Source of the DNA: an uncultured bacterium
GTDB taxonomy: Bacteria > Bacillota > Clostridia > Lachnospirales > Lachnospiraceae
Direction: 5' to 3'
DNA: 39,385 bases
Assembly (NCBI GenBank): GCA_947651225.1
Contig: CANSYK010000030.1
Span: 1 to 39,385 of the forward strand
In this document: positions 1-39,385 of the stretch, piece after piece
How the letters are laid out: the number at the start of each line of letters is the position of its first letter
Numbering within the stretch: the first letter of the stretch is position 1
The notes under the pieces: generated by a model
What the model saw: the letters and a program-made list of their open reading frames with translations, nothing else
Told to the model about the DNA's origin: nothing
Database searches by the model: none
Translations under genes and position numbers: made by a program

Positions 1-52
1 TAGCGCAAAGTGGGGAGTGCAGATTGTGAGAATGAATTTTCAAACACGCTCT
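1..52 (-). repeat. Partial copy of dispersed palindromic repeat (left contig end)
   Basis: The reverse complement begins AGAGCGTGTTTGAAAATT and reads into CTCCCCACTTTGCGC. It is identical over 50 bases to the right end of the window (39336-39385) and closely matches the first half of the full copy at 10119-10299. The copy is cut by the window edge, not by a visible deletion. Confidence 0.85.
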
Positions 53-114
53 AGCCGTTTCAGAATGATTTTTTTTTCATGCCCCGCTTGTTGTCGTAGA
101 AAATGCCATAGTCA

Positions 115-423
115 TTAAGCAACTGGCTGTTCACGCCCCATAATATCCATGACCGCCGTGTTGTCCGTGCGCTTTTTCTCGTGCATGATAAACGCCTCGT
201 CTGCCGCACCGAGAAGCCCGTTTGTGCCGGAAATCATATCGAAGCTGTCCTCTGACTCCAACTTGCGGGTGTGGTGAACCACCAACAGGCAGACACCGTA
301 TTTATCGCTGAATGATTTCAGCTTTGTCACAATCTCATAGTCACTGGAATAACTGTACCTGTCCCCGCCGGCCTCACGCACTTTTTGGAGCGTGTCAATA
401 GTAATCAGCCTTGCGAAAAATAT
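115..423 (-). pseudogene. Fragment of a RepA/AAA_25-type mobile-element ATPase
   Basis: Reading from 423 down to 115, the frame gives ARLITIDTLQKVRE followed by LLVVHHTRK, SGTNGLLGAADE and MDIMGREQ. These are the Walker B and downstream motifs of RecA-like ATPases (AAA_25, RepA-like) found on Firmicutes plasmids and integrative elements. The Walker A half is missing: a stop lies at 427-429 where homology ends. The C-terminal part is lost by 115, where the reading continues only in another frame. The only start codon is an internal GTG at 381, so this is a remnant, not a gene. It marks old mobile DNA at the left of the window. The family assignment is from motif recognition. Confidence 0.6.
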
Positions 424-581
424 TATCTAATATTCTTCATCAACAGATAGCGGCAGGACAGGAAACGGAGAAGATAAGGAAAGAGGGCGAAGCAAATGCT
501 TATATTAAAAGAACTATTAAGCGAAATAGATATATTTAATGATATGGATAGCAACAAAAACTAAAAGGAATAAGAGGGCAA
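424..581 (+). other. Junction region with an unrecognised open 3' fragment
   Basis: One frame is open from 411 to the TAA at 537-539 and ends in a charged stretch (IRKEGEANAYIKRTIKRNRY), which looks like the C-terminus of a lost protein. No start with a ribosome site is seen. It could be chance reading. The Mrr-type gene begins 43 bases later, preceded only by a weak AGAGGG ribosome site. Confidence 0.25.
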
Positions 582-1508
582 ATGGTTACATATGATTTTC
601 AAACTATAAAAATTGTTGATATTACGCTGCCAACGGTTGATAATTTGCCTAATTTAAAGAAGGTAACGTATGTTAAGTCTTCTGGAGAATATAAGGAATC
701 ATATCAGTCAAATGCTTTTATGAAAAAAATGTATGATAAAGCAATGTATGATATTGTTTTATTAACTTTAAAAGCAATATTTGATGCAAATAATCCAAAT
801 GTAGAAGCGATTGTACTTAATGGTAAAGTAAATACAATAGATAAATCAACAGGTAAGGCAATTTCACCATATATATTATCTGTAAATGTTTCAAGAGAAA
901 GTTTTAAAGATCTTAATTTAGAATATATTGATTCAAAGGAATGGTTTAAGAGTTCAAAAGGAATATCGGCTACAACATTTACGAAAATTACGCCAGTTGC
1001 TCCTGTGATAGAGATAAGCAGAGAAGATTCAAGATTTATTGATGGTTATGAAGTGGCTGATAAATTAGATGAGTCTGTAAACTTAGCTGCTATTGATTGG
1101 CAAGATTTTGAAAATTTCATTCGTGAGGTATTTGCTGAAGAATTTAATTCAAATGGTGGAGAGGTAAAAATTACTCAAGCAAGTAGAGATGGTGGTGTTG
1201 ATGCGATTGCATTTGATCCAGATCCAATTAGGGGTGGTAAAATTGTTATTCAAGCAAAACGTTATACAAATGTTGTAGGTGTATCGGCAGTTAGGGATTT
1301 ATATGGAACTGTAATGAATGAGGGTGCAACAAAAGGAATTCTTGTTACAACATCCAATTATGGAAATGATGTATATGAATTTGCAAAGGGAAAACCTTTA
1401 ACGTTAATGAATGGGGCAAATCTGTTGTTTTTGCTTGAAAAACACGGACATAAGGCTAAAATTGATCTAAAAGAAGCCAAAGAACTGAATAATCAAAATA
1501 ATTCTTAG
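582..1508 (+). CDS. Mrr-type restriction endonuclease (type IV-like)
   Basis: The protein has 308 residues. The C-terminal 140 residues form an Mrr_cat PD-(D/E)XK domain. IDWQDFENFIREVF carries the leading acidic residue near 177, SRDGGVDA gives the catalytic Asp near 207, and IQAKRY gives the Q-x-K motif at 224-226. After these comes the family's VRDLYG...KGILVTTSNYG...LMNGANLLFLL tail. Known Mrr family members cut DNA carrying foreign methylation. The N-terminal 165 residues are not recognised and may sense substrate. No methyltransferase is paired with it, which fits a stand-alone methyl-directed enzyme. The ribosome site is weak (AGAGGG, spacing about 5). It lies among mobile-element debris and is AT-rich, consistent with horizontal transfer. 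The catalytic fold is well supported; the target is unknown. Confidence 0.85.
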   Translation: MVTYDFQTIKIVDITLPTVDNLPNLKKVTYVKSSGEYKESYQSNAFMKKMYDKAMYDIVLLTLKAIFDANNPNVEAIVLNGKVNTIDKSTGKAISPYILSVNVSRESFKDLNLEYIDSKEWFKSSKGISATTFTKITPVAPVIEISREDSRFIDGYEVADKLDESVNLAAIDWQDFENFIREVFAEEFNSNGGEVKITQASRDGGVDAIAFDPDPIRGGKIVIQAKRYTNVVGVSAVRDLYGTVMNEGATKGILVTTSNYGNDVYEFAKGKPLTLMNGANLLFLLEKHGHKAKIDLKEAKELNNQNNS

Positions 1509-1721
1509 GCATTGATTTGTTACTGGTGCCAAAATTGCCATAAATGTTTGAAAAGTGTATATAAGAACGTGATTCTAATTACAAAAAAGGGAAGCAATAA
1601 AATTTAAGCATTTACAAACACTAAAGGTTAAAGAAAATTAGAAAAAATATATTGATATAGGACATAAATATATGCTATTTTCCTTGTTAGAAGAAACAGT
1701 TGCAGATGCTGTTATTGGTCA

Positions 1722-1979
1722 TTGATAAGCGCAAAAGCATATCGGGATAAAAAGGCTTTACCGCTTGTGGAGAAGTTGAAAGAGGTAGTAAAAAATCTGA
1801 CTATCAAATGCGTACAGCTTATGGGGTAGGGCAAGAAGTTGAACGCCAAAGTGGACGGGCAACAGAAACAGATTAGCCGCTTGACGGATAAGGTCATGGA
1901 GCAGATCAAGACGAATAATAATACAATCCGCAATCTGACTGGGGAATATAAAAAGATAGAGAAGACGTTGGAACGATAG
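1722..1979 (+). pseudogene. Remnant of a coiled-coil mobile-element protein
   Basis: In one frame this reads SAKAYRDKKALPLVEKLKEV, then a TAG stop at 1827-1829, then KKLNAKVDGQQKQISRL and DKVMEQIKTNNNTIRNL, ending at a TAG at 1977-1979. The heptad-like spacing of L, I and V suggests a coiled coil, as at the C-terminal end of some mobilisation proteins, but the parent family cannot be named with certainty. The in-frame stop and the missing N-terminus mark it as broken. The rest of the 560-base gap between 1509 and 2070 shows no other gene. Confidence 0.4.
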
Positions 1980-2050: not shown

Positions 2051-2088
2051 CAAATCTATAAATCGGGAATATGAATGGGAGAAAATAT

Positions 2089-2871
2089 ATGATTCAAAAA
2101 GAAGTTTTACATGGCGGAAGAAACGGTAAAATATCAAAAGAAGAAAATAAAGTAATTCGTCCAGGAAATAAATGGACTTCGCATGTACAGTCATTTTTAT
2201 CATTTATGCATGAAAACGGGTTTAATAATATTCCTAAACCATATGGAATTAACGAATCTGGAATGGAAATGGTTTCTTTTGTGGATGGAACTGTTTATAA
2301 TGACGGTTTACCGAATGAGATTCTAACAGATGAGATTTTGGTTGAAGTGGCAAAATTACTTCGCCGATATCATGATATTGGAGAAAAGTATGTTCAGCGA
2401 TTAACGGGAGAAGAAGTTTGGATGTTGCCTAAACAATTACCAGTAGAGGTTATGTGCCATGGGGATTTTGCACCTTATAACATAACTTTTGTTGACGGGT
2501 GTGTGCATGGGATAATCGATTTTGATACATTACATCCAGGACCAAGAATTTGGGATGTTGCATATGCAGTATATAGATGGATTCCGTTTGTTTCACCGAA
2601 AAATCCTGATTATTATTATAATTTATATGAACAGATTCGTAGATTAAAGTTATTTGCAGACGCCTATGATTTAAAGAATAATGAAAGAGAACAGTTGCCC
2701 AATATGATAATTCAACGGATAAACAGTCTTGTTGCATATATGAGAAATGAGGCAGATTCTGGAAATGAAGATGTTCGGAAAAATATAGAAGATGGACATT
2801 TGAATTTGTATTTGGATGATATTCAATATATAAAAGAGTCTCAAAAGAATATACTGGAAGGAATATTGTAG
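2089..2871 (+). CDS. Aminoglycoside phosphotransferase (APH) family kinase
   Basis: This is a protein of about 260 residues with the APH/choline-kinase catalytic signature MCHGDFAPYNI (Brenner motif, catalytic Asp) followed by HGIIDFDTLHPGPRIWDVAY (metal-binding IDFD). It is probably a cytoplasmic small-molecule kinase. The family includes antibiotic-resistance enzymes, but also many kinases of unknown substrate, and nothing here identifies the substrate. The start at 2089 is preferred over an in-frame ATG at 2071 because GGGAG sits eight bases before 2089. It has its own extended -10 promoter and no co-transcribed partner. The length is normal for the family. Its place in a decayed accessory region suggests acquisition with the island. 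Confidence 0.8.
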   Translation: MIQKEVLHGGRNGKISKEENKVIRPGNKWTSHVQSFLSFMHENGFNNIPKPYGINESGMEMVSFVDGTVYNDGLPNEILTDEILVEVAKLLRRYHDIGEKYVQRLTGEEVWMLPKQLPVEVMCHGDFAPYNITFVDGCVHGIIDFDTLHPGPRIWDVAYAVYRWIPFVSPKNPDYYYNLYEQIRRLKLFADAYDLKNNEREQLPNMIIQRINSLVAYMRNEADSGNEDVRKNIEDGHLNLYLDDIQYIKESQKNILEGIL

Positions 2872-4172: not shown

Positions 4173-5069
4173 TTGGCAGAGATAAAATTATTCTCTATAA
4201 ATGAAGGAGTAAAGGAATGTACATCATCTGAGGTGGTTTTGGAAAAAGAACTTCAGATGTTGATAGAGCAGAATATGGAAATATTCTTTGGAGTGCGGTT
4301 TTTAAAAAGTGAGTATGCTGTTACAAATGGGCGCATGGACAGTATTGGAATTGATGAAAATAACAGTCCTGTTATATTTGAATATAAGCGTAGCCAGAAT
4401 GAAAACGTAATTAATCAGGGATTGTTTTATCTTGATTGGCTGTTAGACCATAAGGCAGATTTTAAATTATTGGTTATTGATAAATTGGGAATGGAAGCGG
4501 CTGACAGTATAGACTGGTCTGTTCCATGTGTTATTTGTGTTGCACACGATTTTACAAAATATGATATGCACGCAGTCAATCAGATGCAGAGGAATATTAA
4601 ATTGGTAAGTTATCGCAGGTATGATAACGGTATGCTCCTTCTTGAACATTTAAATGCACCAAATGTAAAGCCGATTATGGAAAATGCGGGAGCTGAAAAT
4701 GGTACAAAAAATAGTAAGCAGAAAACCCATTTGGAAAAATTAGCGATGATTTCTGAAAATATGAAAAATCTTTACCATTCTATATGTGATTTTATTGAAT
4801 CTTTAGGGGATGATATTGTATCGAATCAACTTAAATTATATCTGGCATATAAGAAAGTTCAAAATATGGTATGTATCGAAATATACAACAAACAGATTAT
4901 ACTGTTTTTGAAGCTTAATCCAGAAACTGTCGAATTGGAAAACGGGTTTACGAGAGATATGCGCAGCATTGGACATTATGGCACGGGGGACTTGCAGATA
5001 ACGATTAAAAATGCTGCGGATTTTGAAAAGGCAAAGCCTCTATTGCAGAGAGCATATAATGAGATATAA
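4173..5069 (+). CDS. DUF5655 protein with PD-(D/E)XK nuclease-like N-terminus
   Basis: The protein has 298 residues and starts at TTG, supported by GAGG about nine bases upstream. Residues about 45-90 contain GRMDSIGIDENNSPVIFEYK, the D-x(n)-E-x-K layout of PD-(D/E)XK enzymes (compare DUF91/NucS). The C-terminal 110 residues (from about 195) match the DUF5655 pattern, ending RSIGHYGTGDLQITI with a closing helix. Family members are often annotated as hypothetical endonucleases next to restriction systems. It lies 57 bases before the methyltransferase on the same strand and is probably co-transcribed with the R-M pair. It may act as an accessory nuclease or be an independent passenger. The fold is fairly sure; the function is inferred. 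Confidence 0.65.
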   Translation: MAEIKLFSINEGVKECTSSEVVLEKELQMLIEQNMEIFFGVRFLKSEYAVTNGRMDSIGIDENNSPVIFEYKRSQNENVINQGLFYLDWLLDHKADFKLLVIDKLGMEAADSIDWSVPCVICVAHDFTKYDMHAVNQMQRNIKLVSYRRYDNGMLLLEHLNAPNVKPIMENAGAENGTKNSKQKTHLEKLAMISENMKNLYHSICDFIESLGDDIVSNQLKLYLAYKKVQNMVCIEIYNKQIILFLKLNPETVELENGFTRDMRSIGHYGTGDLQITIKNAADFEKAKPLLQRAYNEI

Positions 5070-5126: not shown

Positions 5127-6614
5127 ATGTTAGATTGTGTTATTGAATGTACAAATAGATATATTGACGATATGCCTAAAAAAGAGCGTAAAATATACGG
5201 TCAGTTTTTTACAAGTAAAGAAACGGCACGTTTTATGGCAGAGTTATATACTATCCCTGAAAATTTGTCAAAGGTTCGTATTTTAGATGCAGGAGCAGGG
5301 TCAGGGATATTATCTTGTGCGCTTTTAGAACGATTGGAACAGTTTGATTCTGTTCATTCGATAGAATTAACCTGTTATGAGAATGATGATAATATTTTGG
5401 GATTGTTAAAGGAGAATTTGTATATTTGTCAGGCAAATTCAAAAAAAGATATTCGAATTAATATCATTACGGATAATTACATTACAAGCCAGTATTTAGA
5501 CTTCAATCATATGTTAGGCGGCAATCCCGAGCCTAAGAAGTATGATTTTGTAATTGGAAATCCTCCATATATGAAGATACCTAAAAATGCGCCGGAAGCA
5601 ACGGCTATGCCGGAAGTTTGTTACGGCGCCCCCAATTTATATTTCATCTTTGCCGCAATGGGATTATTCAATCTTGATGATGACGGCGCAATGGTATATA
5701 TTATCCCTCGTTCATGGACTTCTGGGGCATACTTTAAGCGGTTTAGACAGTATTTTCTGACAGAAGGAAAATTAGAACATATTCATTTATTTGTAAGCAG
5801 GAATAAGGTGTTTGATAAAGAAGATGTCTTGCAGGAAACGATCATAATAAAAGTAAAAAAGACAAATCAAACGCCAGAAGATGTTACAATCACTTCTTCA
5901 CAGTCAAATAATGATTTTGATAATCTGACTTCGCTGACTGTGCCGTATAGCCTTGTGGTTTCGGGAGATGATTATTACGTTTATTTAGTAACAGATGAAA
6001 AAGAAGTTTCTGTGTTGGAGCGACTACATAGATTTGATAAAACTTTGCCGGATATTGGACTGAAAATGAAAACGGGCTTGACAGTTGACTTTCGCAATCG
6101 TGAGATACTTCGTGATGATGCGGAGGAAGGTGCAATTCCACTCTTTTATTCGCAACATATCAAGCAGGGCGAAGTGCAGTTTCCTATTCAGAAAGAACAC
6201 GAGTATGTGGTGACAGATCAAAGGGGTTTGGTGCAGGACAATCGAAATTATTTGTTTGTCAAACGATTTACTGCAAAAGAAGAAAGGCGCAGACTACAGT
6301 GCGGGGTATATTTAGCAAAGAAGTATCCGCAGTATAAAAAAATCAGTACACAGAACAAGATAAATTTTGTAGATGGACTGACGACGGAAATGTCAGAGTG
6401 CCTTGTGTATGGATTGTATGTAATTTTTAATTCTACGCTTTACGATAAATATTATAGAATTCTGAATGGTTCAACGCAGGTAAATTCAACAGAAATAAAC
6501 GCAATGCCTGTGCCTGATTTAGAAAGCATACAGGAAATGGGCAGAAAACTGATGAAAAGCAAGGATATGTCAGAGAATAATTGTAATATGATATTGGAGG
6601 GATACTGTGGGTAA
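5127..6614 (+). CDS. N6-adenine DNA methyltransferase of BsuBI/PstI-type R-M system
   Basis: The protein has 495 residues. N-terminal YGQFFTSKETARFMAELY is motif X, DAGAGSG at 54-60 is the AdoMet-binding motif I, and NPPY at 145-148 is catalytic motif IV of adenine-N6 methylases. The C-terminal half is a target-recognition region with an Eco57I-like layout, ending with the INAMPVPDLESI segment typical of this group. It should methylate adenine in the site cut by the neighbouring nuclease. For characterised BsuBI/PstI relatives the site is CTGCAG; here that is inference. Its last eight bases overlap the GTG start of the endonuclease, implying translational coupling. GAGGAAG gives the ribosome site. 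Several CTGCAG sites occur elsewhere in the window, for example near 7931 and 14305. Confidence 0.88.
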   Translation: MLDCVIECTNRYIDDMPKKERKIYGQFFTSKETARFMAELYTIPENLSKVRILDAGAGSGILSCALLERLEQFDSVHSIELTCYENDDNILGLLKENLYICQANSKKDIRINIITDNYITSQYLDFNHMLGGNPEPKKYDFVIGNPPYMKIPKNAPEATAMPEVCYGAPNLYFIFAAMGLFNLDDDGAMVYIIPRSWTSGAYFKRFRQYFLTEGKLEHIHLFVSRNKVFDKEDVLQETIIIKVKKTNQTPEDVTITSSQSNNDFDNLTSLTVPYSLVVSGDDYYVYLVTDEKEVSVLERLHRFDKTLPDIGLKMKTGLTVDFRNREILRDDAEEGAIPLFYSQHIKQGEVQFPIQKEHEYVVTDQRGLVQDNRNYLFVKRFTAKEERRRLQCGVYLAKKYPQYKKISTQNKINFVDGLTTEMSECLVYGLYVIFNSTLYDKYYRILNGSTQVNSTEINAMPVPDLESIQEMGRKLMKSKDMSENNCNMILEGYCG

Positions 6615-7524
6615 AATTGATGAGGCAAGAGAACTTCTGAAAATGCTCGGAATGCCTAAAGCGCAGCAGGCGGATATTTGCTGCTATGTATTGTTGGCAA
6701 TGGCAGGGATAAAGCGGGATACATTATGGAAAAATGCCAGAAATGAGTGGATTCGTATCCATGATATTATCCAGTTTGCTAATACATATTATGGTTCGAC
6801 TTATGCGGAAAACAGCAGGGAGACTTTTCGTAAGCAGGCACTACATCATTTTCGTAATGCTGCGCTTGTAGAAGATAATGGAAAAGCCACAAACAGTCCT
6901 AATTATAGGTATAGGCTTACAGAAGAAACATTGCAGATGGTAAGGGCATTTCAAACATCAGAGTGGCAAAAAGCTATGCATCGGTTTTTGAAGTATCACG
7001 AAAAGCTGGTAGACATTTATGCTTCAAAAAAGAAAATGACGATGATGCCGGTGCGTATTAATGGAGCTGATTTTCAATTTTCTACAGGGAAGCACAATGA
7101 ATTGCAGAAAGCTATTATTGAGGGATTTGCGCCACGATTTGCACCTAATTCAGAATGTTTGTATGTTGGAGATACCATAGAGAAAGATTTGGTAAAAAAT
7201 GTTGATAAGCTGAAAGAATTAGGATTTGAAATAACTTTGCATGATAAGATGCCGGATGTGGTTTTATACAGAGAGGATAAGAACTGGATATATTTTGTAG
7301 AATCAGTGACTTCCGTAGGACCAATGGACGCTAAAAGAATATTGGAAATAGTGGAGATGACGAAGAATGTAACAGCAGGAAAAATCTTTGTGACGGCATT
7401 TCTTGATTTTAAGACATATAAGAGATTTTCGGAAACGTTGGCATGGGAAACAGAAGTCTGGATTGCCGAGATGCCGGAGCATATGATACATTTGAATGGG
7501 GATAAGTTTTTGGGACCGAGGTAA
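6607..7524 (+). CDS. BsuBI/PstI family restriction endonuclease
   Basis: The protein has 305 residues. The N-terminal part (about 1-130) looks helical with a winged-helix character. The C-terminal catalytic domain is clear: GKHNELQKAIIEGFAPRFAP (161-180), YVGDT (186-190), DKMPDVVLY (213-221), FVESVTSVGP (230-239), AWETEVWIAE (279-288) and the terminal NGDKFLGPR. These are the BsuBI_PstI_RE hallmarks. It is a type II enzyme expected to cut CTGCAG unless methylated. The start is GTG at 6607, preceded by GGAGG inside the methylase gene, giving an eight-base overlap. The order methylase then nuclease favours protection before cutting. The length is normal and no key motif is missing, so the system looks active. 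Confidence 0.92.
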   Translation: MGKIDEARELLKMLGMPKAQQADICCYVLLAMAGIKRDTLWKNARNEWIRIHDIIQFANTYYGSTYAENSRETFRKQALHHFRNAALVEDNGKATNSPNYRYRLTEETLQMVRAFQTSEWQKAMHRFLKYHEKLVDIYASKKKMTMMPVRINGADFQFSTGKHNELQKAIIEGFAPRFAPNSECLYVGDTIEKDLVKNVDKLKELGFEITLHDKMPDVVLYREDKNWIYFVESVTSVGPMDAKRILEIVEMTKNVTAGKIFVTAFLDFKTYKRFSETLAWETEVWIAEMPEHMIHLNGDKFLGPR

Positions 7525-7609: not shown

Positions 7610-9667
7610 ATGATGGAGACACAAAATGCTTTTTTAATGTTTGCAAATTCTTTGAAATTAATCAGGCGAGCTGAAATAGAACATGAGGGCGAAAATATTA
7701 TAGATGAAATTTATACAGATTTGCTTCCAAATGAAGGGATATTACAGCAGGTAAATTTACCGAGAACATCAATATTAAAAGGAAGAAAAGGAACTGGCAA
7801 GTCAACAATATTTCAAAAGTCGATTGCTGACATGAAGGGAAATAAAGATGTAATTACTGTTTATATTGATGTTAAAACATTGTTTGATAGTGCAACTCCT
7901 ACGCTTTCGGGGACTTTAACAACGGAGATGTCTGCAGAAATAAAAAAATATCTTATCTACAAAAATTTTTTGTTTGAAGTTATAAAATTGGCAACAGAAG
8001 GATTTAAGAGTTCAATAAAAAGTCAAAATTTTTTAAGTAGAATAGCACATTCTTTAACTGGAACAATTATTGAAGTTGAAGAGGAATTATCAGAAATTCT
8101 TGATAATATAAATGAAGTAGTTAAAGCTGTCGATGCGCAATTATATACGGTTATTAGTAAAACGGAAAGTAGTGGACAAAATGAGAAAGCAGAAATTGAT
8201 GTTAATATCTCAAGTACATCAATAGGAGCGAATACAGAAATTAGTAAAACAGAAGAAAATATTTGTAAAAGAGAATTTTCAAGTGCTGTATTACAATATT
8301 TTGATATTAAAAAATGCCTTATTGAGTCATTTTTAAAAATAAGAGATTCTTTAAATGTTAAATATATTTACATTTATCTTGATGATTATTCAGAAATGGA
8401 TCAGGAAGCGCAAGAAATTTTTATGGATTGGTTTGTTGCCCCATTAAATAATGTGTCGGATGATTTTGTTAAATTTAAAATTGCAACATATCCAAGTAGG
8501 TTTTATTATGGGCGTTTAGATAATCAAAAAATTGATGAAATCAATTTAGATTTTTATAGTGCGCTTTATGCATATAAAAATATCACGAAGATGGAAGAAT
8601 TATCAATAGACTATGTAAGGAGATTGCTTTGCAACAGATTCGAGGTGTTTCTTCCCGGTAAAAAAATATCAGATTATTTTGACATGAAGGATGAGGTACT
8701 TTTTGAGTTGCTGTTCGATATGTCTTTAAATACACCTAGAATAATCGGATATATATTAGGATACTGCTTTGCGACACATGTTACTATAGGGAAAAAAATA
8801 ACCAAAGCCGCTTTGAATATGGCTGCCCAGAAATATTTTGAAGATGTTACGGAACAATATTTTGAGAAAAATAAATTTGTTGTACAGTCATTTGACGAAA
8901 TGTCATCATTGGAAAATCTGAAATTTCTGATGGGAAAAATTATTAAAAAAGAAGAAGAAAATGATAAACAAGTAAATGAAGTGGAAAAGAGAAATTTGCC
9001 AACGAGCCATTTCATGGTTTCTAATTCCCTATGTAGTTTATTAGATTCATTAGAACTTAACGGCTATATTACAACATATAATAAAGTAAATGATAAAGAC
9101 AATAATCCATCTACATTATATGCAATGAATTATGGAATGTGTCAAAAAAATAATTTAAAGTATGGTAGACCAAAGGATACAGGGTTAAGAAAATATTATA
9201 GTGAAAGAAAATTTTTATTTAATGATTTGATAAAAGATCATTTTGATGAAAGTCAAGAGATTAGATGTCCTAATGGTCATATGTTTCCATTTGAGAATTA
9301 TGATGCAATGAAGGCATATGGGATGAGTTGTCCAACGTGTTCTATGCAGTTGCATCAATATGTGGAATGTAAATTGGAGATGACAAATAAATTTATATTA
9401 GATGTTATTAGGAATTATGTTGATAAGTCATTAAAGCTGAATGATGGGCTAGAATATGAAATTTTAAACTTTTTGGGGAATAATAGGGAAGGTGATTTTA
9501 AAGCAAGCATGATAGCAGGAGAATTAGATTGTACATATCAGTTGATTGCTAAGAGAACACAGAAATTAATTGATAGGGAGTTGGTTTATGTAAGTAGAAA
9601 TGATGGGCAACGGCGATATTACAAAATATCTCAGTATGGATTAAAAGAACTTGAAAAAAGAAAATGA
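7610..9667 (+). CDS. P-loop ATPase with zinc ribbon and C-terminal winged helix, candidate defence protein
   Basis: The protein has 685 residues. Walker A is GRKGTGKST (58-66). Walker B is IYIYLDDYSEMD (about 253-264) with adjacent acidic residues, in a STAND/KAP-like ATPase layout. A helical insert rich in E, S and T fills 150-220. Sensor-like TYPSRFYYGR lies near 292-301. After a helical region comes a zinc ribbon, RCPNGH (552-557) with CPTC (574-577). A winged-helix module closes the protein (about 612-685, MIAGELDCTYQLIAKRTQKL). Domain order ATPase, zinc ribbon, winged helix suggests a nucleotide-driven DNA-binding sensor or switch. I do not recognise it as a named defence family. It lies next to an R-M system, has its own promoter and an AAGGGAG ribosome site, and is more AT-rich than the housekeeping genes. 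The function is inferred only from context. Confidence 0.7.
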   Translation: MMETQNAFLMFANSLKLIRRAEIEHEGENIIDEIYTDLLPNEGILQQVNLPRTSILKGRKGTGKSTIFQKSIADMKGNKDVITVYIDVKTLFDSATPTLSGTLTTEMSAEIKKYLIYKNFLFEVIKLATEGFKSSIKSQNFLSRIAHSLTGTIIEVEEELSEILDNINEVVKAVDAQLYTVISKTESSGQNEKAEIDVNISSTSIGANTEISKTEENICKREFSSAVLQYFDIKKCLIESFLKIRDSLNVKYIYIYLDDYSEMDQEAQEIFMDWFVAPLNNVSDDFVKFKIATYPSRFYYGRLDNQKIDEINLDFYSALYAYKNITKMEELSIDYVRRLLCNRFEVFLPGKKISDYFDMKDEVLFELLFDMSLNTPRIIGYILGYCFATHVTIGKKITKAALNMAAQKYFEDVTEQYFEKNKFVVQSFDEMSSLENLKFLMGKIIKKEEENDKQVNEVEKRNLPTSHFMVSNSLCSLLDSLELNGYITTYNKVNDKDNNPSTLYAMNYGMCQKNNLKYGRPKDTGLRKYYSERKFLFNDLIKDHFDESQEIRCPNGHMFPFENYDAMKAYGMSCPTCSMQLHQYVECKLEMTNKFILDVIRNYVDKSLKLNDGLEYEILNFLGNNREGDFKASMIAGELDCTYQLIAKRTQKLIDRELVYVSRNDGQRRYYKISQYGLKELEKRK

Positions 9668-9902
9668 GTTTTAAACAAAAATATGTTTTTTGAAAATGAA
9701 ATAAAAATAGGACGCTTTTGGTGAAAAAGAAAAGATTAAGGATAGTAGAGAAGGTACTGAATTAAATAGTATCTATTATTAAAACCTTTTGGTGCCAAAA
9801 CGGTGCTAAGAAATCATGAAAATAAAAATACACCATATAAAAATAACGATTTTATGCTGTTTTCTACAATAAAAAGCATAGAAAACGCCACAAAAAACGC
9901 TA
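9668..9902 (+). other. Island end region with repeated GGTGC motifs
   Basis: There is no gene here. GGTGCCAAAA followed by CGGTGCTA (about 9791-9808) forms a short direct repeat, and GGTGCCAAAA also occurs near 1526. Such repeats are common as arm sites near tyrosine-recombinase attachment sites, but no integrase is in the window. The stretch lies immediately before the tuf fragment and is a candidate attachment region. Confidence 0.35.
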
Positions 9903-9965
9903 TTCAAATACCATGAGGGTGGTAGAACAGTAGGTTCAGGCAAGGTTGTAAGTATTGTTGAGTAA
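9903..9965 (+). pseudogene. tuf: 3' end of an EF-Tu gene (tuf fragment)
   Basis: The frame from 9903 reads FKYHEGGRTVGSGKVVSIVE and stops at a TAA at 9963-9965. EGGRTVGSG followed by a short V-x-x-I-x-E tail is the nearly invariant C-terminus of bacterial elongation factor Tu. Homology starts at about codon 9912; upstream the frame hits a stop at 9879-9881, so the rest of tuf is absent. A good terminator follows 23 bases later, as expected for the real 3' end of a tuf transcript. The simplest reading is a tuf 3' end cut off from its gene by an inserted island on its left. The intact gene is not in the window. Confidence 0.72.
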
Positions 9966-9988
9966 TTAGAATATTATTTGAAATTATG

Positions 9989-10020
9989 GGGCTTTCCAAG
10001 AGATAGGAGAGTCCTTTTTT
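9989..10020 (+). terminator. Rho-independent terminator after the tuf fragment
   Basis: A nine-pair stem, GGGCTTTCC with GGAGAGTCC (two G-U pairs), has an eight-base loop and is followed by six T at 10015-10020. Confidence 0.75.
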
Positions 10021-10118
10021 CGATGTTTGGTGGGATTGGTAAGTTGTGATAACAGAATGATAATAAAAATTCGCTAATTTTGAAGAAACGAGCTGTAGCG
10101 CAATGGTTATCAGATTCT

Positions 10119-10299
10119 AGAGCATGTTTGAAAATTCATTCCAGGAACTTTCAGTTCCTTACAATCTGCACACTCCCCACTTTGCGCTATATTCGGCTCA
10201 AATTTAGTCAATGTAGCCCGCTACACCTCCTAAATTTGAGCCAAATCTCCCACAAAGTGAGAAGCACATCTTACAAAAAGCAATTTTCAAACACGCCCT
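10119..10299 (+). repeat. Full copy of dispersed palindromic repeat (181 bp)
   Basis: The ends are inverted repeats: AGAGCATGTTTGAAAATT at the left and, reading inward from the right, AGGGCGTGTTTGAAAATT (16 of 18 identical). The centre is a second dyad, GGCTCAAATTTAG and CTAAATTTGAGCC, around TGTAGCCCGCTACA. The two halves also resemble each other (CCCACTTTGCGC against CTCACTTTGTGG), so the whole unit is one imperfect palindrome. It ends two bases from the stop codon of the hybrid kinase. It has no coding capacity. Partial copies occur at 1-52, 15484-15550, 19063-19080, 20689-20732 and 39336-39385. Confidence 0.85.
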
Positions 10300-10301
10300 A
10301 A

Positions 10302-13300
10302 TTACTTCAATATTTCCCCTAACAGTTCCAGCAATTTAGGGACATCAATAGGTTTTGCCGCATGTCCGTTCATTCCTGCCTCAAATGCTGCCTTCTTGTC
10401 TTCATCAAAGGCATTGGCAGTCATTGCAATAATAGGGATATTAGAAAGTTCCGAATTTTCCATTGCCCGGATCTGCCTTGTTGCCTCATAGCCATTCATG
10501 ACTGGCATCTGAATATCCATCAGAATAAGATCATACTGGCCAGGCTGAGCCGTCTTCATTCTCTCTACTGCGACAGATCCATCTTCTGCTACTTCCATAA
10601 TAAATCCTGCTGATTGTAAAATTTCTACAGCGATTTCCTGATTAATTTCATTATCTTCAACGAGAAGAATTTTCTTACCCGTAAAAGAAGTGGTATTTTC
10701 TGGATCCTCCTTTTTTGTTTCAGAAACCATAAAAGGCGATTCCAGGATTTCTCTAAGTTCTGACAGGAAAATCGGTTTTGAACAAAAAGCAGTGACTCCT
10801 GCATTTCTCGCTTCCTCTTCAATATCAGACCAATCATATGCAGTCAGAATGATGATTGGGGTATCCTCACCTATAATCCCCCGGATTCTCCTGACAACTT
10901 CAATACCGTTCATATCTGGCATCAGCCAGTCTATAATATACGCCGCATACCCGTCATTTTGTTCTGTTGCCAGTTTGGTACGGAGTACCGCCTCTTTGCC
11001 GGAAGTCGTCCAGTCTGGGCGCATTCCGATCGTAGAGAGCATTTTTGTCACGCTGGAACAGGTATTGAAATCGTCATCTGCCACAAGAGTCCGCAGTCCT
11101 TGCAGCTCTGGAATAATTTCCTGCCTGACTGGTCCGGAACAGGTCTTAAACTGTAATGAAACAGTAAAGGTTGTTCCTTTTCCCTCTTCACTGATAACAG
11201 CAATCGTACCACCCATCATATCCACAATATTTTTTGTGATTGCCATTCCCAGCCCGGTACCCTGGATTCCGCTGACAGTACTCGTCCTTTCACGCTCAAA
11301 TGGCTCAAATACATGTTCTATAAACTCTTTGCTCATACCGATGCCGGTATCCTTGATTTGAAAATCATAGGAAGCACAGCCATCTGGTGCATTTCCTTTT
11401 TGCAGGATACGGACGCTGACGATGCCGCCAGGCTTTGTGAATTTCATGGCATTGCTCAGCAGGTTCAGCAAAACCTGGTTCAGTCTCAGTTTATCGCATA
11501 AAATATGTTCATTTATGACGTCAGCAGTATCAATAAAAAACTCTAGCTGTTTTGATGTAATATCTGACTGCACGATAGTCTTTAAATCATGCATAATTTC
11601 AGGAAGCGATGTCTCTTTTTCCTCGATTTTTACCTTACCACTCTCTATGCGGCTCATATCCAGGACGTCATTGATCAGGCTAAGGAGGTGGTTGCTGGAT
11701 GTAGAAATTTTTGACAAATAACCCTGAACCTGATCTTTGCTGTCAATATGAGCTGCAGCAAGAGATGTGAATCCGATAATAGCATTCATTGGAGTCCGGA
11801 TGTCATGGGACATATTATTAAGGAATGTTGTTTTGGCACGGTTGGCATGCTGTGCCGCAGCCAGTGCATCCTGGAGATCCTTTGTCTGCTGTTCCAGTTT
11901 TTCTTCCATTTTTTTCTCATCATCGATATCCACAAATAAACCAACAAAAGTAATAGGTGAGCCGTCCTTCCGCCGGGACAGGCGGCCAGCTGCATGAAAC
12001 CATCTCAAACCTTTATTTTTGGTATAAAGCTGGTACTGTACATCATATGTTTTTTCGCCAGTATAATCCTTTACTGTCTCCCAGTATTCTTCAATAATCC
12101 GTTCTTTATCCTCTTCATGTAACAGATCAGACCATGACTCCAGTTTGTTAGGAAAATCCTCCTCATTTTTATATCCCAACATGTTTCTAAATACATCTGA
12201 CCATGTGCAGGATATTAGCTCTGACTTATCATTAAACTCCATACTCCAGAAGCCTGACTTCATTGCGGCATGGATATTGTCCATCGCCATCTGCTCTCGC
12301 TCAATCTGGGCAAAAGCAGCCCTGATTCGGTCTCCGTCTGCCTTTTCCTGATCCAGGAGGAATTTGGCATTTCTTCTGGATCGCCGGATTAATGCCAGAA
12401 ATACTAAAAGCATCACAACCATTGTAATGATGATCTGGATAATGCCCCGTCTCATCATCCCGGAACTGATAGAGCTAATCTGGCGGCTGATTACATTATC
12501 CAGAACCAGTATAGTCATCATCCAGTTCGTGCCCTCAACGGGAATATAACAAAGTGACTCATGTAAATCACAATACTTGAAAGAAACATGACCTGATTTT
12601 CCCTTTTCAAAGTCTTCCTTTACCAGATCAAAGTCGTAGCCTTGAGCGATATCGGCATCTTTCAGTGCAGAAAGAAGATTTTTTCCCGCTTTCACATTGC
12701 CAAAATCTTCATTGGTAAGGCTTTCACCGTTGTAGTAGTACAGGCTGCAAAAGGTTTCATTATTATTTGTCTGAAGCGTCAGCGAACTGAGCATCTCATC
12801 GATATTAAGTTGTATAAAGCAAGTTTTAATCCTTGCTTTCTGAAAGGTAATGTTTTTTACGGGAGTTGCCAGGACAACCTGTTTTTTTGCCCCATATAAA
12901 TTTGCTGTGGTAATTACAGGTTCTGGTAATTCACCTGATAGGAAACTATATTTGTTAAGACCGGATGTTGTATTGTGTTCTGTATAAACGATTTCGTTTT
13001 CATCAATCAGTGCAAACGTATCCAACCCATACAGTTTTTTGATCATCCCAAGAAATTTCCGCAATTCCGTCTGAGATTCTGGATTGGTATCTTGCAGTAT
13101 GGCCAGTGCATTGTCCATGTAGGCAAAATGATTTTTTAGTTCCTCTGAAACTACCTGGGCTCTTCGGCCTGCCAGTTCCTTCAGATAAAATTCACTGACC
13201 CTGTTTACCGCCTCATTGGTACCATTCCTTGCGCCATTTGATACCCAGACCGTTGTAATAAGAAGAATCATTGCAATGATGATCCCGCCCAATACAGCAG

Positions 13301-30248: not shown

Positions 30249-30698
30249 TTATGATATGCTTTGCAATTGTATACTGTGCTCTGATACAACTTTTTTGAGT
30301 AAGGTAATATCGTCAAAAGCATTTTCCATTCTGTCTGCATAATTTCTGTAGCGGTCATATGTATCTTTGTAGCAGGATGTAATTGTGTTTAGTTGTGGCA
30401 GGATTTCCGTTTCCTGACATAATTCGATTTTTTGCACTCTGATTTCCAGGTTTTTGACGCTTTCTTCCAGGTTTTTGACATTTTCTTTGAGATTTTCGAC
30501 GTCTTCTTTGAGATTTTCGACGTCTTCTTTGAGATTTTTAACATCTTCTTTGAGATTTTTGACGTCTATTTTGAGAATTTTAACGTCTTCTTTGAGATTT
30601 TTAACATCTTCTTTGATCTCTCGGATATCATTAGTGATTGGTTCCAGTTTTTTGTCCATCATATTTGATATGGCAAGAAGTAATTCGTTATCTGACAT
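30249..30698 (-). CDS. Heptad-repeat coiled-coil protein of unknown function
   Basis: The protein has 149 residues and starts after AAGGAGGGG on the minus strand. Residues about 27-92 are roughly nine copies of a seven-residue unit, mostly VKNLKED or VENLKED, which predicts a long parallel coiled coil. The flanks are MSDNELLLAISNMMDKKLEP at the N-terminus and a helical C-terminus (YDRYRNYADRMENAFDDITL). No enzyme motif or membrane segment is present. At DNA level the units are near-identical 21-bp repeats, so copy number should vary by slippage. Similar proteins are common in Lachnospiraceae, but no function is known to me. It is convergent with the epimerase gene. Confidence 0.75.
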   Translation of the reverse strand: MSDNELLLAISNMMDKKLEPITNDIREIKEDVKNLKEDVKILKIDVKNLKEDVKNLKEDVENLKEDVENLKENVKNLEESVKNLEIRVQKIELCQETEILPQLNTITSCYKDTYDRYRNYADRMENAFDDITLLKKVVSEHSIQLQSIS

Positions 30699-39194: not shown

Positions 39195-39335
39195 TACCAC
39201 ATGAATTTGATGGAGAGGAGGAAAACGAATATGTGTGAAGTGTTGAATTGCATAGAGAACAGGGGGCTACAGTAAAGCTTGTAGAAAGGGCAGGATATAA
39301 TTCTTTCATTGAATCATTATCTGTTTGCCAATACT

Positions 39336-39385
39336 AGAGCGTGTTTGAAAATTCATTCTCACAATCTGCACTCCCCACTTTGCGC
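39336..39385 (+). repeat. Partial copy of dispersed palindromic repeat (right contig end)
   Basis: This is identical over its 50 bases to the reverse complement of 3-52. Both contig ends therefore enter the same repeat from opposite sides. Confidence 0.88.

Follow-up and report, generated by a model that had tools for sequence, protein, structure and literature searches.

The end of a tuf gene in the window

Why should the last codons of tuf stand by themselves to the right of a group of restriction genes? EF-Tu, the product of tuf, ranks with the most abundant and best conserved proteins of bacteria. The question is raised by the window analysed here, which is the whole of contig C30 (39,385 bp) from a genome assembly of 167 contigs. 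The original prediction, made from the letters of this contig, was that a defence island had been inserted at the 3' end of tuf. Features of the window that bear on the question are given in Table 1.

The EF-Tu tail EGGRTVGSGKVVSIVE is encoded in frame, with its stop codon at 9963-9965, and no other tuf sequence was found upstream of it in the window. The hairpin that follows is similar to those found 3' of intact tuf in relatives. The description of a tail and terminator lacking the remainder of tuf was borne out. The fragment aligned with the end of the genome's own tuf gene on contig C18 at 91% identity over 65 columns (E 1.7e-18), and its likeness to tuf is therefore not due to chance. Its first codon is CAT, compared to CGT in the intact gene, which ends 198 bp short of the end of C18.

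One explanation without any mobile element is that the fragment is a decayed second copy of tuf from which most of the gene was deleted. Some bacteria carry two tuf genes, and the window does retain nothing of the gene except its end. Against this, a search of the window's genome for the EF-Tu domain 3 family gave a single match (C18:53493-53774), which lies within the intact gene.

Table 1. Features of the window, with positions, strands and the evidence for each.
Feature	Position	Strand	Evidence
Possible AAA_25-type ATPase remnant	115..381	-	E 8e-4, 19.5 bits, Pfam cut-off 27
Relaxase remnant	423..494	+	G187 protein residues 241-264; tblastn 92%, 24 aa
Mrr-type (type IV-like) restriction enzyme	582..1508	+	Mrr_cat E 2e-28; mREase_IV E 1e-44
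Relaxase remnant with one in-frame stop	1719..1913	+	G187 protein residues 341-405; tblastn 82%, 65 aa
APH-family phosphotransferase-like protein	2071..2871	+	Pfam PF01636 E 7e-16
NucS_C-like protein, candidate family PDC-S18	4173..5069	+	PADLOC E 1e-133
N6-adenine DNA methyltransferase, paired with the BsuBI/PstI enzyme	5127..6614	+	Eco57I family E 6e-18; PADLOC MTase_II E 3e-116
BsuBI/PstI-type restriction endonuclease	6607..7524	+	Pfam PF06616 E 5e-59
685-aa P-loop ATPase, weakly Sll1717-like	7610..9667	+	NCBIfam E 9e-10, 38 bits, cut-off 75
Putative integrase arm site GGTGCCAAAACGGTGCT	9791..9807	+	121 bp left of core
Element right end (proposed attP right arm)	9791..9911	+	Similarity to named right ends
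Displaced tuf 3' end (proposed)	9912..9965	+	Last 17 codons and the stop, beginning at the crossover site
Proposed attR core	9912..9919	+	CATGAGGG in the window, CGTGAGGG on C18; one-base difference
Hairpin followed by a T run; terminator of the displaced tuf end	9988..10021	+	Sequence

Accessory genes to the left of the fragment

The genes to the left of the fragment are accessory, as had been described, and include the Mrr-type enzyme, the BsuBI/PstI-type restriction-modification (R-M) system and the P-loop ATPase, for which no match was obtained at 0.001 in Pfam or PADLOC. The PDC-S18 gene, the R-M pair and the ATPase gene are read as cargo of the proposed element. Together with the PDC-S18 candidate, the Mrr-type enzyme and the R-M system form a cluster of defence genes. 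The "broken mobile genes" of the original prediction correspond to the two relaxase pieces and the weak AAA_25 match, and it is because of these that the mobility genes of the window look decayed. Both relaxase pieces match one reference protein of the Mob_Pre family from G187 (E 1e-20), and the Mrr-type gene sits between them. An AAA_25-type ATPase gene is located 3' of the integrase in several of the tuf-linked elements described below; the remnant in the window is on the opposite strand.

Relatives of the endonuclease, 82-90% identical, were obtained from the tuf-linked loci L202, L217, L246 and L049, and a partial one from a contig end in L044; the methyltransferase shows the same linkage. 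This search was limited to loci anchored on tuf or an integrase, and therefore does not establish that the R-M system is restricted to tuf. In L202 the endonuclease is 85% and the methyltransferase 84% identical to those of the window, with a helicase in place of the window's ATPase.

Fragments of tuf in the genus

A tuf-end DNA query against 28 genomes of the genus detected 12 fragments without an upstream tuf, distributed over 8 of the genomes, and one further match in G004 that covered just the terminator part; another 8 of the 28 gave no match of any kind to this query. All 12 fragments begin at the crossover point defined below or within four bases of it. Contig C48 of G019 has two such fragments separated by 11 kb. 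The interval contains a type I R-M system with genes of the HsdM, HsdR and specificity families, and the second fragment is followed by a BsuBI-type R-M system that is interrupted by the contig end. On C145 of G004, an intact tuf is followed by a RelB/ParE pair, by a tuf-end fragment at 1.4 kb and by the terminator-only match 3.0 kb from tuf. A gene for a MerR/TipAS-family regulator was also seen after the tuf-end fragment there (L125, 8423-11604), all within about 3 kb. The same BsuBI-type R-M system is found immediately 3' of an intact tuf on C4 of G026; past it, this locus (L049, 2031-3889) has genes for a ribosomal-RNA-adenine-dimethylase-family protein and an AadA_C-family nucleotidyltransferase. 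At L129 (G027:C45, 3594-9498) a tuf-end fragment directly precedes a Cas12a gene in two frames and Cas4-, Cas1- and Cas2-like genes.

An integrase clade linked to tuf

An integrase gene starts about 1.1 kb after tuf on C195 of G001 and runs off the contig. Its relatives in 200 genomes of the family led to loci with tuf ends, and an alignment of seven integrases was used as the query for a scan of named genomes, from which the best 80 loci are reported. A tuf end was present in 62 of these 80 loci, always on the integrase strand, as compared with 2 of 80 viral-contig loci. At 49% identity to the query or above, 62 of 69 loci had a tuf end, and below 49% none of 11 did. The seven loci at or above 49% that lacked one had only 311-2,178 bp of upstream sequence, while 7 of the 11 below it had more than 4 kb upstream, yet no tuf end. 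The tuf end was upstream of the integrase start in 58 of the best 80 loci, at a distance of 1,047-8,169 bp, and downstream only in 4.

The integrase tree was built from 84 rows, comprising 79 of the best 80 named loci (one was too short and was dropped) and five integrases from the window's own genome. A single branch with support 100/99 contained 68 rows, including all 62 that are tuf-linked, and the remaining 16 rows were the 11 unlinked loci and the five from the window's genome. Judged by record title, the hosts of the clade are mostly Lachnospiraceae, and its distribution is broad. Two of the loci with tuf-clade integrases beside tuf, L204 and L221, are from records named Clostridium sp. 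ASF356 and Eubacterium plexicaudatum ASF492. Both tuf ends are present in L204, with a second integrase match beyond the second of them, and the stretch covered for L221 has an intact tuf and the integrase.

The integrase of L182 has Phage_integrase (PF00589, E 9e-23), SAM-like and Arm-DNA-bind_4 domains. Residues R195, H294, R297, H320 and Y330/Y334 are invariant in the seven aligned integrases, and we take these to be the catalytic Arg, His-x-x-Arg, His and Tyr of tyrosine recombinases. Of 36 PF00589 matches in the window's genome, five close ones were placed in the tree; all five fell outside the clade, and the assembly yielded no integrase belonging to it. The element family has a site-specific integrase of its own, and none was found for the window's own element.

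These results bear on two points of the original prediction. It had named an intact tuf with a duplicated end beside an integrase gene as support: the intact gene whose end is duplicated in the window is on C18, and the adjoining integrase was seen in the named loci, with none of the tuf clade found in the window's assembly. It had also called tuf an unusual attachment site; the site itself was correctly recognized, and it is recurrent in Lachnospiraceae.

Elements bounded by tuf ends

Among the best 80 loci, 22 have successive tuf ends that bound 4.6-17.7 kb, and the left member of the pair is an intact tuf in 18 of the 22. The duplication begins at the same Arg codon in all 22 pairs, and the sequence preceding it is unrelated. 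This constant breakpoint, shared to within four bases by the genus fragments, speaks against the decay of a second tuf gene. Differences between the paired copies are chiefly at third codon positions, and the EF-Tu tail peptide is altered in 6 of 18 elements.

Among the genes seen in such elements are those for an xre-type regulator, on the opposite strand, for the integrase and, at the place of an excisionase, for a small HTH protein; others encode TnpV, a Mob_Pre relaxase and an AAA_25 ATPase or primase-like protein. Complete AAA_25 genes are present in L202 and L182. A relaxase match was obtained with one tblastn query in 15 of the 22 elements; Mob_Pre (MobV-type) proteins were identified in L191 (E 1e-20) and L182 (E 9e-13) and MobA_MobL in 2 of 96 cargo ORFs, and one ORF of the relaxase region in L202 had no Pfam match. 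The order in L202 is intact tuf, integrase, AAA_25, a relaxase-like stretch, the BsuBI-type R-M system, helicase, right end and tuf fragment. The largest element, L209 (17.7 kb), has more than one integrase match and may be composite.

It is unlikely that the window's element was a self-transmissible element (ICE) or a phage satellite and not an integrative and mobilizable element (IME), with the tuf-clade integrase using such other vehicles as well. The tuf-bounded segments are small, most of them have the relaxase match, and conjugation or capsid gene sets were not seen when the ORF lists were read by eye. What favours this alternative is that the window's element is incomplete and that two viral-contig loci do have a tuf end.

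Arm motif and element ends

The GGTGC-type direct repeats that had been noted just upstream of the fragment are present as sequence; they are one motif, the GGTGCCAAAACGGTGCT of Table 1. We regard this motif as a putative integrase arm site. In the form GGTGCCAAAACGGTGC(C/T) it starts 121 bp to the left of the core in the window; on C18 it is on the right side, starting 139 bp from the core. With at most one mismatch it occurred 10 times in the 28 genus genomes, and nine of these occurrences were beside tuf ends; the tenth, on C22 of G015, has masked sequence alongside. The reversed pattern, used as a control, gave 3 matches in the same genomes.

A second form, TGGyTCTAnnnTGGyTCTA, was found in named elements. 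Counting either form, the motif was at -121 in 13 and at -120 in 2 of the right ends of the 22 pairs, and it was present at 14 of the 22 left ends, at +137 to +151 (11), +195 (1) and +260 (2). Seven of the 22 pairs had the motif at neither end. The spacing in the window and on C18 is the same as at the right and left ends, respectively, of named elements, and the Arm-DNA-bind_4 domain of the integrase fits the putative arm-site role. A tuf fragment that stands behind a right end with this spacing is a further point against a decayed second gene.

When window positions 9791-9911 were compared with the named right ends, identity was 89% for L202, 88% for L250 and L209, 74% for L204 and 69% for L195 and L196. 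The other 16 of the 22 right ends are at most 60% identical to the window, a level that shuffled sequences also reach (200 shuffles, with a mean of 53.5% and a maximum of 61%). Matches of the C18 arm region extend over 22-25 bp in right ends and over 16-28 bp in left ends; since the region is alike to both, its nature as a left end is judged from the spacing. C18 ends 112 bp past the start of its arm motif, and its last 133 bases had no match elsewhere in the assembly, so a join of C18 to C30 through a shared end is unsupported.

An empty site in another genus

The right flank of the element in G079 was searched against 41 genomes. In G261, which belongs with G079 to another genus of the window's family, tuf directly joins this flank (98.3% over 2,041 bp). 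G261 is the same as the attL of G079 across 60 bp to the left of the core and the same as its attR across 130 bp to the right, and comparison of the filled with the empty site confines the crossover to the 8 bp CGTGAGGG, where G261, attL and attR all agree. An island-free relative with an empty site, as the original prediction proposed to look for, has thus been found: tuf of G261 continues straight into the sequence that follows attR in G079. The G079 element (L241) is among the seven of 22 without a recognized arm motif, so the crossover map and the arm spacing derive from different members of the family. Three other relatives of G079 depart from the simplest picture of empty and filled sites. 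In G255 tuf and the flank are adjacent, with a different stretch beyond the stop codon, and insertions of 1.2 kb and 6.2 kb lie between tuf and the flank in G267 and G264.

The 22 pairs and the comparison of empty G261 with filled G079 show that insertion is precise and site-specific, with direct repeats on either side. On the fixed breakpoint and the empty site we rejected a decayed second tuf gene, to which we give practically no chance.

The right flank of the window

The kinase locus to the right of the fragment had been expected to lie downstream of tuf in relatives without the island. This expectation was not supported in the genus, where relatives of the kinase and GDH genes were not found beside tuf, and the right flank is the weak point of the case. 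Among the matches listed, GDH was found in 24 of 27 relatives and shares a contig with tuf only in G012, where it lies some 21 kb upstream; in G014 the two genes are on different contigs, GDH on C1 and tuf on C5. In G007, G026, G020 and G025 the kinase relatives are on other contigs than tuf, where tuf was found. Most genus assemblies are fragmented, so adjacency of the kinase or GDH to tuf across contig ends is excluded only locally. As a downstream neighbour of tuf in relatives, the kinase/GDH locus is unsupported by the genus matches listed.

The tuf fragment is separated from the kinase by a dispersed, partly self-complementary repeat of about 185 bp (window 10117-10307, approximately). 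It has at least 10 further copies in the genome, 89-95% identical, and was also found in several genus relatives. The similarity of G007 and G026 to the kinase region starts inside this repeat. Because of its position, a later rearrangement or a misjoin at the repeat is possible.

This repeat, the start of the kinase similarity inside it and the 167 contigs of the assembly are what would suggest an assembly chimera, in which reads from a tuf end were joined to an unrelated island or right flank. We consider this very unlikely. The left junction, consisting of the right end plus the core, recurs in named contigs from many projects, including records titled complete genome (L204 and L207), and the objection leaves only the right junction exposed.

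A second repeat, of about 55 bp, is found at window positions 1-55 and 39334-39385 in mutually inverted orientation. The first 580 bases of the window gave 50 matches, mostly to this repeat at or near many contig ends, and it is therefore useless for ordering contigs. Elsewhere in the window, positions 30249-30698 on the minus strand encode a small protein that contains consecutive NLKEDVK-like heptads.

Defence genes across the element family

A cargo set of 96 ORFs (from 178, after removal of 69 backbone and 13 redundant ORFs) was compared with a control set of 66 flank ORFs (from 122, after removal of 22 and 34, respectively). No enrichment of defence genes in cargo over flanks was detected with PADLOC at 1e-15 (140 versus 137), a comparison that counts families and not genes and in which the flanks may contain further islands. 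The first 25 of 64 Pfam families matched by the cargo included the NgoBV, BsuBI/PstI and MmeI restriction families, Vsr, Abi_alpha and a CAP12-type TIR; many non-defence families appear in the same 25, which refer to the cargo alone.

A model for insertion at tuf

The fragment in the window is very probably the attR of an integrative and probably mobilizable element, whose attB would be the 3' end of tuf and whose tyrosine integrase would recombine this site with attP. Sequence comparison supplies both ends, the fixed breakpoint, the arm spacing, the linkage to one integrase clade and the empty site in another genus. Strand exchange would take place inside the 8 bp CGTGAGGG, which encodes Arg-Glu-Gly of EF-Tu, 17 codons from the end. 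The attP would bear its own in-frame copy of the tail codons, stop and terminator, so that after integration a full-length tuf would end in codons supplied by the element and the old chromosomal tail would be displaced to the element's far end. The regulator, excisionase-like and integrase genes adjoin tuf with the cargo toward the far end, and in several elements this cargo includes R-M or other defence genes. The re-formed site in tuf would be targeted again by new elements, and remnants without an integrase would accumulate in tandem between tuf ends. The window would represent a right end with decayed mobility genes, and C18 and C30, which are not joined in the assembly, presumably bound one element. 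We infer the recombination chemistry, excision, conjugative mobilization and anti-phage function.

The insertion at the 3' end of tuf that the original prediction proposed is supported by the duplicated end, the linkage to integrases and the empty site in a relative. One part of it is refined: on the simplest reading, the window's fragment is the older, displaced end, and the intact tuf would carry the end brought by the element.

A bolder reading, which we offer tentatively and think has only a minor chance of being right, is that the 3' end of tuf is a serial docking site for small cassettes of defence or toxin-antitoxin genes, each flanked by tuf ends, often integrase-less and putatively moved in trans by tuf-clade integrases, whether resident or incoming, giving a swappable immunity array that grows at one essential gene and, with every insertion, a rewritten EF-Tu tail. 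It is suggested by the type I R-M system between tuf ends in G019, whose second end precedes the BsuBI-type system, by the RelB/ParE pair in G004, by the Cas12a locus 3' of a tuf end in G027 and by the 6 of 18 changed tails.

Insertions of this kind would mean that the last codons of EF-Tu in Lachnospiraceae have been repeatedly swapped by mobile DNA, sometimes with a changed residue. They may explain contig breaks after tuf, and the site suggests where new accessory and defence genes could be sought in Lachnospiraceae. Given the conservation of the 8-bp core and of the codons around it, the integrase-attB pair could serve as an integration tool for gut anaerobes that are hard to engineer.

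Comparison with known systems

No report of tuf as an integrase target was found in the literature searched, and att-site catalogues in supplementary data may list it; passages of PMC12884075, PMC12904643, PMC10121019 and PMC6008420 do not name tuf as such a target, and the word "tuf" does not appear in PMC5704250, PMC5357655 and PMC4701971. The latter three describe how mobilizable and conjugative elements use tyrosine integrases to enter housekeeping genes at their 3' ends, and how such elements accrete with integrase-less remnants. Among the closest known systems are the streptococcal IMEs at rpsI, rplL, rpmG, rpmE and guaA (such as IMESag-rpsI), which, in these accounts, also use tyrosine integrases at housekeeping 3' ends. 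The likeness is one of description; here the target is tuf and the hosts are mostly Lachnospiraceae. The CIMEs and tandem accretion related to ICESt1, as outlined in part of PMC5704250, are att-bounded remnants stacked at one locus, as in G019 and G004, whereas some of the bounded segments here carry toxin-antitoxin or defence genes. The relatives of Salmonella genomic island 1, and that island itself (at trmE and dusA), are likewise mobilizable and target a conserved gene, according to PMC8409611, but differ in target genes and hosts. The esp pathogenicity island of Enterococcus faecium strain U0317 has also re-integrated downstream of tuf; the relevant passages of PMC2858755 present it as a rearranged copy of the island at the rpsI site and describe no tuf-specific integrase. 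Because elements at housekeeping 3' ends are known and, save for the E. faecium island downstream of tuf, no report of a tuf target was found, what is new here is the target gene, tuf, and its broad distribution, for a known type of IME.
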